This document shows, piece by piece, positions 23,378-25,730 of a stretch of 64,000 nucleotides of DNA. The number at the start of each line of letters is the position of its first letter. Position 1 is the first letter of the stretch. The notes beneath the pieces were generated by a model. It saw nothing but the letters and a program-made list of their open reading frames with translations, had not been told where the DNA came from and made no database searches. The translations under genes were made by a program, and so were the position numbers. Source of the DNA: Leptodontidium sp. MPI-SDFR-AT-0119 (lineage: Eukaryota; Ascomycota; Leotiomycetes; Helotiales; Leptodontidiaceae); the NCBI GenBank assembly GCA_020726505.1, contig JAHLEZ010000012.1, positions 992,001 to 1,056,000 on the forward strand, read 5' to 3'.

Positions 23378-23382
23378 AAAAA
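23378..23382 (-). terminator. Pol III T5 terminator of the tRNA gene
   Basis: Five Ts on the - strand, starting 14 nt past the discriminator base. A second T5 run lies at 23369-23373. This is the usual RNA polymerase III stop signal and supports a real tRNA transcription unit. Confidence 0.75.
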
Positions 23383-23434
23383 GAATGAATCTTGCCGACA
23401 CCTGAGTGATTCGAACACTCGCTCCCGAAGGAAA

Positions 23435-23485
23435 CTAGTTGATTGTTAGAATTGAAGAAGACCATGTGTGATCAGGTGAACTTAC
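23435..23485 (-). other. Spliceosomal-type intron B inside tRNA-Ser (after base 42)
   Basis: 51 nt on the - strand, starting GTAAGTTCACC and ending TTCTAACAATCAACTAG. The 5' splice site GTAAGT and branch CTAAC are perfect. It interrupts the 3' strand of the anticodon stem before base 43. Only its exact removal supplies U43 to pair with A27. Confidence 0.8.
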
Positions 23486-23490
23486 TGGCT

Positions 23491-23509
23491 GTCATACTGT
23501 TCTCACGAA
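23491..23509 (-). other. Canonical 19-nt tRNA intron after base 37
   Basis: It lies between A37 and A38 in the anticodon loop, the position cut by the tRNA splicing endonuclease. It has no GT..AG form, so it belongs to the protein-enzyme pathway, unlike the other two insertions. Confidence 0.75.
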
Positions 23510-23539
23510 TAGCAGGCCATCGCGTTAACCACTCCGCCA

Positions 23540-23590
23540 CTGGATATTGTTAGTGGAAGTTCCTGTGGACGGATTGTTGGATGGGCTCAC
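23540..23590 (-). other. Spliceosomal-type intron A inside tRNA-Ser (after base 7)
   Basis: 51 nt on the - strand, starting GTGAGCCCAT and ending CACTAACAATATCCAG. It has a standard 5' splice site, a CTAAC branch site 10 nt before the end and CAG. It separates the acceptor 5' strand from bases 8 and 9. Confidence 0.8.
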
Positions 23591-23597
23591 AAGTGCC

Positions 23598-25730
23598 AAT
23601 CTGCTGGGTCTAAACATAACGTTTTGCTCAGCTGTTTTGAAACCGAATTGCTTATTTGGTTACATGAATAGGTTATGGAAATTCTCCACAGAAAGAACTT
23701 AGCGGTGTGGTGTGGAGAGAGGTGCATAGGCGAGTTCAGGTTGGCGAGTGGGGAATAGGGTTTCGTTGGAGGGAACTTGGTACTTGGTTTACAAACGTAC
23801 GAATATTCTTGTCGAAGTACGAATGGGACAAGATAACTGACTATAAACTTAGAAAGATGTCCAGCAGGCTCGAGCCTCAGTTCTGTATCTGCGCGGAAAT
23901 CTCGCTACTAGGTAAACATGCTCGCTTATGAAAAAGGGGCCTGAAGAACGGGCACATCGGCCGCACTGATGACGGGAGGTAGAGTTCGACGACTCCCTTC
24001 CTCTGGCCAACTTTGGTCTCAGGCCTGCTGGCCCACCCGGGGCTTTTTTCATAATGAGATCCTCCTATACTATCACGAACCGGACATTCCACTGCCAGGT
24101 GCATTTGAGTTCATTGAGGCGACTCAACAGAACTCAACACAGCGAGAGTGGGACTCTCTTACGGATATGAACATGCATATCATTGAGCACATGCAGAGAT
24201 GTGAGATTAAGTATAAGTGCATGCGCGAAGTAATCGCTATTGAGCGAGGAGAGAAAGTTCCAGTCGAGAATACCGAAGGCTGGGCTCTACCTGACATCAA
24301 GTTGGTAGCTATTGTTGTTTGATGGAGTCCGATGTTGATCAACGAAACGGTGCTGACGCTACTATGCCGAAGTATGTACCGCTTCGCGATGGAGATGATG
24401 TTGCTGGAAATCTAGATGCTGGGACGCCTGGTGGTTTGATGTGTGGGTCTTTGTTCTGCTGCCAATGTTGCTTCACAACTATGATAATTCTACTGCGGCA
24501 CTAGTATTTGGAAGAAGACTGCTCACGCCGTCCAGGGACAAAGGAAAGAAAGATCATCCTCGATGCATTGCCCCCATGAATTGTTATCACACACTGCTAA
24601 ACACACTTACTCATTCCAAATCAGACTTTAGCTTAGATAGCAACATATCCTAGACCTTGCTCAGAGATCAACCGGATACCACAAGTTGCTTTCGAACCCA
24701 AATCCTTCTCGAACTCAACTGGGTGTTATATTTAGCGTACTCATTCTCTACTTATCAACACCCAGCCAACTACCATGTTAATGAAGCATGGACCGTATTC
24801 AGTACTATCCACTCTATGTCTCAAGGGCCAACTCATAAACTATGTATCCTCCCCAAGATAGCTCACATCAACAAGAAACTCTGCACATCATAGATCTGAA
24901 TTCCAGCGAACACCAACGACCTCTTTCCTGCCGCATATTTTGCAGGATCTCCTCTACGATGCCTCCTTCGGCCTGTCGTAACCCCCAACCCCCTCCACCT
25001 TATAATGTCCTCGCTGTGAGAAGTAATCATCAATCAACATTACCCCTCACCTCTGTTATAGTAAAGTATGTAAGTAAGTTAGTATACCACCTAGGCAGCC
25101 CCAGTCGTATCCAGCGAAATGACTTGCCGTACTGGACAACTCATCACTTTGCAACTTCAACCGAAGCTTACTCATACATACTTGGATGGCCTCTTGACGT
25201 AACATCGTAATGTTCTGAAAAGACTTAGAGACAAGACTTTGGACAGGCGCCCTGATCTGTGGATGTAGTACTGGTATATAATGAGAGTGAAGCTACCCAC
25301 CCCTACCTAGTCTTCGCTTGGCTGGAGAAGAAATTATTTGGTTCTTCACCTCGAACAAATATCTAGGTACTCAAGCCGAACCTCCTCTTCCTCTCAGCCC
25401 CTGAACCATTTATACCATTTCCTACTAAGGAAGAGACAAGCAAGATGCAAAGCAACCTCTACTCGACAAGGATAGATGGGCTTGCAATGCTACCGTGCGC
25501 GAGTGCAGAGTGTGTGTGTGGTATGGTATCGAGACTCTGCCCTACTGACGGGGTTAGGATTTCTTGACTTCACCTGAATAGGTAACCAGCAAAGTCAAAA
25601 TTTTTCTCATTTTTTTTCTTTCTTCAAAACATTCGTTCATTCATAGCTAATTAATGAATACAATACAATCCCACTACCAAATTCGCCCATTCCACCAACC
25701 TATCTTCCAGACCACAAAGCAGAACTCTGT
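23598..25730. other. Gene-poor interval right of the tRNA gene
   Basis: 2.1 kb. One ATG-initiated frame at 23969-24322 (+) would encode 117 residues with a charged C-terminal half. I recognise no family, and it could be a small gene or chance. The remainder shows no structure that I can support. Confidence 0.4.

Follow-up and report, generated by a model that had tools for sequence, protein, structure and literature searches.

The window considered here is the whole 64,000-nucleotide (nt) stretch of contig JAHLEZ010000012.1 of Leptodontidium sp. MPI-SDFR-AT-0119 (C4:992001-1056000 in an assembly of 77 Mb and 69 contigs, with C as the label of a contig and L as that of a locus), and the element in question is a putative transfer RNA (tRNA) gene, tRNA-Ser(GCU), on its reverse strand, which is divided into three tRNA exons by two inserts that have the features of spliceosomal introns (Table 1). 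The elements listed for this gene by a first-pass annotation of the sequence, namely both 51-nt inserts with their splice signals, a 19-nt intron, the anticodon GCT, the A and B boxes, and a terminator of five Ts, are all present. After both inserts are taken out, the acceptor stem pairs at 7/7 positions and the anticodon stem at 5/5, as had been predicted, with two of the acceptor pairs, not mentioned there, being G-U; the T stem (5/5) and the D stem (3/3) are equally complete. The pairs were counted by position, since RNAfold did not return the textbook cloverleaf for the mature Ser(GCU) tRNAs. The further claim that only exact removal from GT to AG would yield a tRNA holds as well, with a single placement of the borders restoring the tRNA for each insert, and with that placement being GT..AG in both. 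The unspliced gene is not recognized as a tRNA by ARAGORN, nor by Rfam at gathering scores, while the gene lacking the two inserts is reported by ARAGORN as tRNA-Ser(GCT) with a 19-nt intron. In our estimation, with a probability of about 0.9, this is a working nuclear tRNA-Ser(GCU) gene, the precursor of which would be made by RNA polymerase III (Pol III), spliced by the spliceosome, and then cut by the tRNA endonuclease, a route that roughly a dozen further tRNA genes in the genome would share.

Table 1. Features of the tRNA-Ser(GCU) gene (positions in the window) and other interrupted tRNA genes of the genome (sites of the inserts in the tRNA).
Feature	Position	Strand	Basis or remark
tRNA-Ser(GCU) gene, three tRNA exons, 202 nt	23396..23597	-	sequence; mature 81-nt sequence same as that of paralog C12:1592998-1593155
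Exon 1, GGCACTT, acceptor 5' strand	23591..23597	-	runs directly into TGGCGGAG in paralogs C12 and C26
Spliceosomal-type intron 1, 51 nt, tRNA 7/8, GTGAGC..CACTAACA..CCAG	23540..23590	-	not in C12 or C26, where the exons meet exactly at this site
Exon 2, D arm, bulk of the anticodon arm, canonical intron	23486..23539	-	sequence
A box, TGGCGGAGTGG	23529..23539	-	by sequence reading
Anticodon GCT	23511..23513	-	sequence; ARAGORN on the spliced gene
Canonical 37/38 tRNA intron, 19 nt	23491..23509	-	ARAGORN, after taking out both inserts
Spliceosomal-type intron 2, 51 nt, tRNA 42/43, GTAAGT..TTCTAACA..CTAG	23435..23485	-	missing with exact junction in C12
Exon 3, final anticodon-stem base, variable arm, T arm, acceptor 3' strand, G73	23396..23434	-	sequence
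B box core, GTTCGAATC	23408..23416	-	match in own genome
TTTTT, likely Pol III terminator	23378..23382	-	sequence
Upstream element, TGTAACCAAATA, likely Pol III TATA-like	23653..23664	-	common to the C12, C26, and L032 tRNA genes
Arg(UCG), two genes (one on C1)	insert 47/48
His(GUG), two genes	insert 12/13
Arg(CCU), C34	insert 55/56		B box split
Thr(CGU), C5	insert 55/56		B box split
Ser(AGA), C6	inserts 10/11 and 69/70
Leu(CAA), C14	inserts 9/10 and 57/58
Ile(AAU), two genes	insert 6/7
Leu-like L119	C3:817022-817110, with flanks	-	two GT-AG inserts, same places as in Leu(CAA) C14

A genome search with the whole window gene as query brought out two further Ser(GCU) genes, located on C12 and C26. 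The one on C12 (C12:1592998-1593155) reads GGCACTT-TGGCGG and GCCA-TTTCCTTCGGG without a break, and since it carries the exon junctions predicted for the window gene already joined in its DNA, the junctions of the latter are settled. The mature tRNA of C12 is the same as that of the window gene at all 81 positions, in agreement with the 81-nt product foreseen in the first-pass annotation, despite the introns being at different places: C12 has an insert of its own in the T stem (57 nt, GTGAGT..TACTAACA..CCAG), in addition to a canonical intron of 20 nt. The gene on C26 (C26:552072-552262) contains inserts of 54 nt at 15/16, that is, inside the A box, and of 56 nt at 28/29, and has no intron at 37/38. 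Its mature tRNA is distinct in sequence from those of the window gene and C12, with three base pairs, two in the anticodon stem and one in the T stem, differing from the window gene on both sides. In an alignment of five Ser rows, which includes Ser(AGA) and Ser(UGA), 120/120 cells pair, and 10 of the 24 pairs are changed two-sidedly.

The idea that the window gene might be a single copy, and therefore essential, does not stand in that form, as there are two more genes for the same tRNA, but each Ser(GCU) gene that was found is interrupted. A genome search with the predicted mature sequences, which scored its best candidates only and was not exhaustive, listed no Ser(GCU) gene beyond the three interrupted ones; its other matches were the Arg pair and three Ser(AGA) genes. 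With a pattern running from the D loop to the anticodon and three mismatches allowed, the window gene, C12, and one unread site with three mismatches (C45:3142620) were matched, compared with nine matches of the reversed control; a pattern spanning the anticodon through the variable arm, which is unable to match C12, found C26 alone, and the exon letters of Ser(GCU) gave 0 matches in each of two viral-contig scans. On present evidence, all the Ser(GCU) genes found would need spliceosomal splicing.

Inserts of the same type are present in other tRNA families. Among 61 presumed nuclear tRNA loci, 14 carry a total of 19 inserts, in the families Ser, Arg, His, Ile, Leu, and Thr, or 13 genes with 17 inserts if L119, which is probably decaying, is left aside. 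These loci come from 62 tRNA-like loci that were read, 46 of them from a genome profile search with RF00005 and 16 others, with the organellar-looking L054 set aside; they include a few fragments and unclear genes and form a biased sample, in which partial matches were deliberately sought, and the RF00005 search, with 63 of 2877 candidates scored, does not amount to a census. No matches were obtained with a composite of 12 tRNA sequences, which leaves many isoacceptors, including Asp, Glu, Phe, Val, Tyr, Asn, Cys, and Pro, outside the survey, and a composite search for five families gave no additional locus. The inserts occupy 13 positions, which are 6/7, 7/8, 9/10, 10/11, 12/13, 15/16, 28/29, 42/43, and 47/48, counted along the tRNA, and 50/51, 55/56, 57/58, and 69/70 in standard numbering; none of them corresponds to 37/38. 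Up to two spliceosomal-type inserts are found in a tRNA gene, and the first exons have from 6 to 15 nt, plus any leader. Uninterrupted paralogs are present for His, Ile, Thr, Leu, Arg(CCU), and Ser(AGA).

Once spliced, 13 of the 14 genes have an acceptor stem of 7/7 and a T stem of 5/5, the only exception being L119, and the anticodon stem is 5/5 in all eight interrupted genes in which it was counted. ARAGORN, when applied to the 14 unspliced genes, detected nothing in 11, assigned a wrong isotype in two, and placed a wrong 5' end on an Ile gene (L048). For the first 11 genes a direct comparison is available: before splicing nine were missed and two were given a wrong isotype, and after it 11/11 were found, with the isotype wrong or unclear in two.

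The signals within the inserts are highly uniform. All 19 start with GT, have a G at position +5, end with AG, and measure 51–66 nt; CTAAC or CTAAT is present in 18/19, with the branch A located 10–14 nt from the end, and 15/19 finish with CAG or TAG. In borders, branch site, and coding-intron architecture, the inserts match U2-type spliceosomal introns of filamentous fungi. Introns of group I or II were rejected as candidates, 51–66 nt being too short for them. The comparison with coding introns rests on one gene of the window, encoding a CLC channel, in which four gaps, located by tblastn with an Oculimacula protein and by visual inspection, served as coding introns. Three of the four show the combination of GT, branch site, and AG. 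Three are short, with lengths of 46–61 nt, leave the frame open once they are cut, and contain strict CTAAY in two cases and CTGAC in the third; the fourth gap has 191 nt. Among named organisms, the CLC channel fragment itself has a 92% match over 60% of its length in Oculimacula yallundae, with close matches also in Cadophora and Rhynchosporium.

It is extremely improbable that such signals arose by chance in unrelated DNA lying within tRNA genes, or through assembly error. GT and AG are short, and a reading guided by the tRNA leaves from one to four equivalent placements of each insert, which would make accidental agreement easier. The agreement extends, however, to 19/19 inserts on several contigs, and the combination of GT, branch site, and AG was found in only 25 of 380,000 shuffled inserts; random stretches of the window, with the lengths of the first 15 inserts and the branch A allowed 8–16 nt from the end, had GT, CTAAY, and AG in 103 of 2,000,000 cases. 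For nine of the 19 inserts the tRNA is restored by a unique choice of borders, which is GT-AG in every case, while each of the other 10 inserts has two to four equivalent placements, one of which is GT-AG. A pattern of CTAAC followed after 5 to 35 nt by GTTCGANTC matched the genome 39 times and its reversed control 74 times and thus showed no excess; 30 of the 39 matches were given as loci, and three of them are tRNA genes (the window gene, Arg on C1, and Ser on C12).

Another explanation, which we regard as very unlikely, is that the inserts are ectopic tRNA introns recognized through a bulge-helix-bulge (BHB) motif and cut by the tRNA splicing endonuclease, a situation known from some archaea and from the red alga Cyanidioschyzon. 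Several introns per tRNA and sites other than 37/38 are known for the endonuclease route, according to the accessible parts of three papers (PMC8450103, PMC4090602, PMC3978253), and the ectopic tRNA introns of the Guillardia nucleomorph often have no clear BHB in the accessible text of one of them (PMC3978253), so that lack of the motif alone is not decisive. Introns of this kind have no need of GT, CTAAY, or AG, and yet the inserts have all of these, while their lengths match those of the short coding introns of the window. A strict BHB motif was found in 0/19 inserts, and the central helix, with a mean of 1.5 of four pairs in the first 15 inserts, is at about the level of chance. As a negative control, a GT start together with an AG end occurs in 0/19 introns at the canonical position, a rough figure that follows the placement by ARAGORN, in which some introns are misplaced. 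One of these canonical-position introns, that of L049, becomes GT-AG if it is shifted by up to 2 nt. This locus (C2:157628-157795, reverse strand), a tRNA-like gene of 168 nt and ambiguous isotype, has a 96-nt insert near 37/38 that starts near CCCAGTATGT; the insert contains no CTAAY, may be spliceosomal, and was excluded from the insert counts.

The spliced products of the interrupted genes suggest that selection acts on them. Arg(CCU) on C34 and the uninterrupted L053 encode mature tRNAs that differ by two two-sided base pairs only, both of which straddle the intron. Similarly, Thr on C5 has four two-sided pair changes in comparison with L029, three of which straddle the insert, and Leu on C14 has three in comparison with L052, all in the acceptor stem and all straddling. 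The spliced forms of the two interrupted Ile(AAU) genes are the same, letter for letter, as the uninterrupted L011 and L012, and spliced Ser(AGA) on C6 differs from L025 by one base. In the two His genes the sequence outside the introns is the same and the introns are 65% alike, with GTACGT, AACTAACA, and CCAG kept.

These comparisons bear on the proposal that the interrupted genes are decaying pseudogenes invaded by introns or other DNA, as had been offered in the first-pass annotation for the window gene. Such decay would be compatible with the existence of uninterrupted paralogs in six groups, with the state of L119, which has a mismatch in the acceptor stem and the anticodon CGG, and with two tRNA-Gly copies that have lost their 5' ends. 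It is nonetheless improbable for the set as a whole, in view of the complete acceptor and T stems in 13/14 spliced genes, several of them with two-sided changes across the intron, and of the His introns, which diverge while their splice signals stay. For the window gene in particular, all stems are intact, three base pairs are changed on both sides relative to C26, and all three Ser(GCU) genes are interrupted, with no other found in the searches described above, although the codons AGC and AGU must be decoded.

Transcription of the interrupted genes by Pol III is suggested by their flanks. AAATA is present upstream in 11/11 of the interrupted genes that were tested, and 14/14 have four or more consecutive Ts within 70 nt downstream. 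AAATA or AAATAAG recurs at about -20 to -100 upstream of many tRNA loci and is likely a Pol III TATA-like element. Within the inserts themselves TTTT occurs in 0/19, compared with 4.4 expected by shuffling (P 0.004), while runs of five Ts are too rare for such a test (P 0.29). Transcription by RNA polymerase II would accord with the usual coupling of spliceosomal splicing to that enzyme and with the splitting of the B box by inserts in three families. We consider it unlikely in the light of the upstream AAATA, the downstream T runs, and the introns free of TTTT, and also of a U6-like small nuclear RNA (snRNA) gene of the same genome, which belongs to a Pol III family and has an intron of this kind. 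In that gene (C13:138532-138689, L095), a 49-nt insert reading GTAAGT..ACTAACA..CAG is located at 138592-138640 on the forward strand, between CATGGC and CCCTGCAC, and with it the Rfam score is 40.8, below the gathering score of 44. With this insert, the precedent already known, a Pol III RNA that the spliceosome splices, is represented in the same genome. A second U6-like gene, uninterrupted and diverged-looking toward both ends, lies 21 kb away (C13:117239-117337, reverse strand).

Taken as a whole, the comparative anatomy supports the view, put forward in the first-pass annotation for the window gene, that its transcript passes through both the spliceosome and the tRNA endonuclease, and similar inserts are present in 13 further tRNA loci. 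Pol III would transcribe the interrupted genes, and the spliceosome would take out the U2-type GT-AG introns in the nucleus. The acceptor, anticodon, D, and T arms are required by later tRNA-processing enzymes. Because one or another of these arms is broken until the inserts have been removed, we place the spliceosomal step first; the tRNA endonuclease and ligase would most likely deal with the canonical 37/38 intron only afterward, and processing of the ends and export would most likely also belong to this later phase. Where the B box is split, more of the promoter function may be borne by the upstream element, a role of upstream elements that is discussed for algal permuted tRNA genes in the accessible text of a review (PMC3978253).

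A number of observations weigh against this interpretation. The acceptor stem of L119 is 6/7, with a broken pair, and its anticodon is CGG. The search with mature sequences missed two known genes, Ser(UGA) L036, which shares 24 nt, and Ser(AGA) on C6, and may have missed an uninterrupted Ser(GCU) gene as well. Among the signals, intron 1 of C26 has no CTAAY branch site, 4/19 inserts finish with AAG instead of CAG or TAG, and the donor of intron 2 in Ser(AGA) on C6, GTTTGA, is weak. The lack of TTTT is weak evidence for Pol III, as the three short coding introns also have none, and the inserts that split the B box in Arg(CCU), Thr, and Leu should weaken the binding of TFIIIC. Finally, both transcription and splicing are deduced from the DNA of one genome.

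If the proposed pathway is correct, the tRNA genes of this lineage have probably been invaded repeatedly, at 13 positions and in at least six families, and in genes that also have a canonical intron two unrelated splicing systems would act on one Pol III-made precursor. With Ser(GCU) always interrupted, translation of AGC and AGU, including that of the spliceosome's own proteins, would then probably depend on the spliceosome. Such a pathway would break the textbook division between tRNA introns, assigned to the endonuclease, and GT-AG introns, assigned to messenger RNA (U6 and U3 excepted). It would provide a natural system in which to follow how a Pol III transcript is spliced when its first exon has 6 to 15 nt, plus any leader, and how this step is ordered relative to folding, end trimming, and export. 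Intron gain would be accessible too, as paralogs vary in the presence and place of introns while their exons are nearly identical, and tRNA finders would be expected to overlook or misname genes of this sort.

Several other loci deserve a brief description. The two tRNA-Gly copies, L130 (C11:590751-590837) and L131 (C33:31675-31760), have no 5' acceptor strand, and the differences of L131 from L130, judged by eye, are mostly C-to-T and G-to-A, which resembles repeat-induced point mutation. Three His genes (L043, L106, and L110) have a similar downstream stretch, approximately CTGGATTGAAAGTTAAG.TGGTTTAATTCCATC, which is weaker in L110. The first T run of L106 and L110 is found only 62–69 nt downstream, which would fit an extended trailer or an additional small RNA. 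Four tRNA-Lys(CUU) genes (L030, L031, L033, and L035) have a conserved trailer, CAATTCCCGAGGTTCT, in common. L050 (C68:2063566-2063657, forward strand) is a tRNA-like locus of ambiguous isotype, in which the acceptor and T stems pair and G73 is present, but the anticodon arm is odd and the variable region short. The window also encodes an endonuclease-G-like protein with, among named organisms, a 95% match in Oculimacula yallundae, which together with the CLC channel matches points to an ascomycete of the Helotiales, probably of the Ploettnerulaceae.

Comparison with other interrupted RNA genes helps to place these observations. We know of no precedent for spliceosomal introns with tRNA as the host class, and a search of titles and abstract openings, mainly in the open-access literature, with most subscription papers and all preprints outside it, found no work on spliceosomal introns in nuclear tRNA genes, in keeping with the same remark in the first-pass annotation. 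The string 'spliceosom' does not occur in the accessible text of the tRNAscan-SE 2.0 paper or of a review of tRNA introns (PMC8450103, PMC4090602), and it occurs once, in connection with coding genes, in that of a review of disrupted tRNA genes (PMC3978253). Canonical eukaryotic tRNA introns, located at 37/38 and processed by endonuclease and ligase, have a counterpart in the 19-nt intron of the window gene, whereas both 51-nt inserts are found at other sites, have GT-AG borders and CTAAC, and form no BHB. The tRNA genes of archaea, red algae, and nucleomorphs likewise contain several introns at unusual places, but none of these is described as spliceosomal in the accessible parts of the papers cited above.

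Introners are mobile spliceosomal introns, and they, too, give rise to intron gains at scattered sites. As a source of the present inserts, for which numerous near-identical copies across the genome would be expected, they were tried and set aside, as the search with the whole window gene, which covers its two introns only and skips very common words, matched nothing but exons elsewhere in the genome.

The closest parallels are provided by small structured RNAs, among which U3 and U6 are stated to be the only ones known to be often interrupted by introns in the accessible portion of a 2017 survey (PMC5832005). Introns of the messenger RNA type are present in fungal U6 snRNA genes (Tani and Ohshima 1989; Canzler et al. 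2016; both as cited in the same portion of PMC5832005), and as in the tRNA genes described here they are GT-AG introns in a small structured RNA made by Pol III; here, in contrast, the host is tRNA, several isoacceptors are affected at a total of 13 positions, and a gene can hold as many as two inserts, beside a canonical endonuclease intron. Fungal U3 small nucleolar RNA shares with these genes the GT-AG borders, a branch site of the RCTRAY type with a branch-to-acceptor distance of about 15 nt on average, and paralogs with and without the intron, but its introns, as far as the accessible text goes (PMC5832005), have a mean length of 92 nt and few, clustered positions, unlike the 51–66 nt and 13 positions of the tRNA inserts. 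Spliceosomal introns in small structured RNAs are thus already known, and the new part, as judged from the sequence of this genome, would be the tRNA that hosts them.
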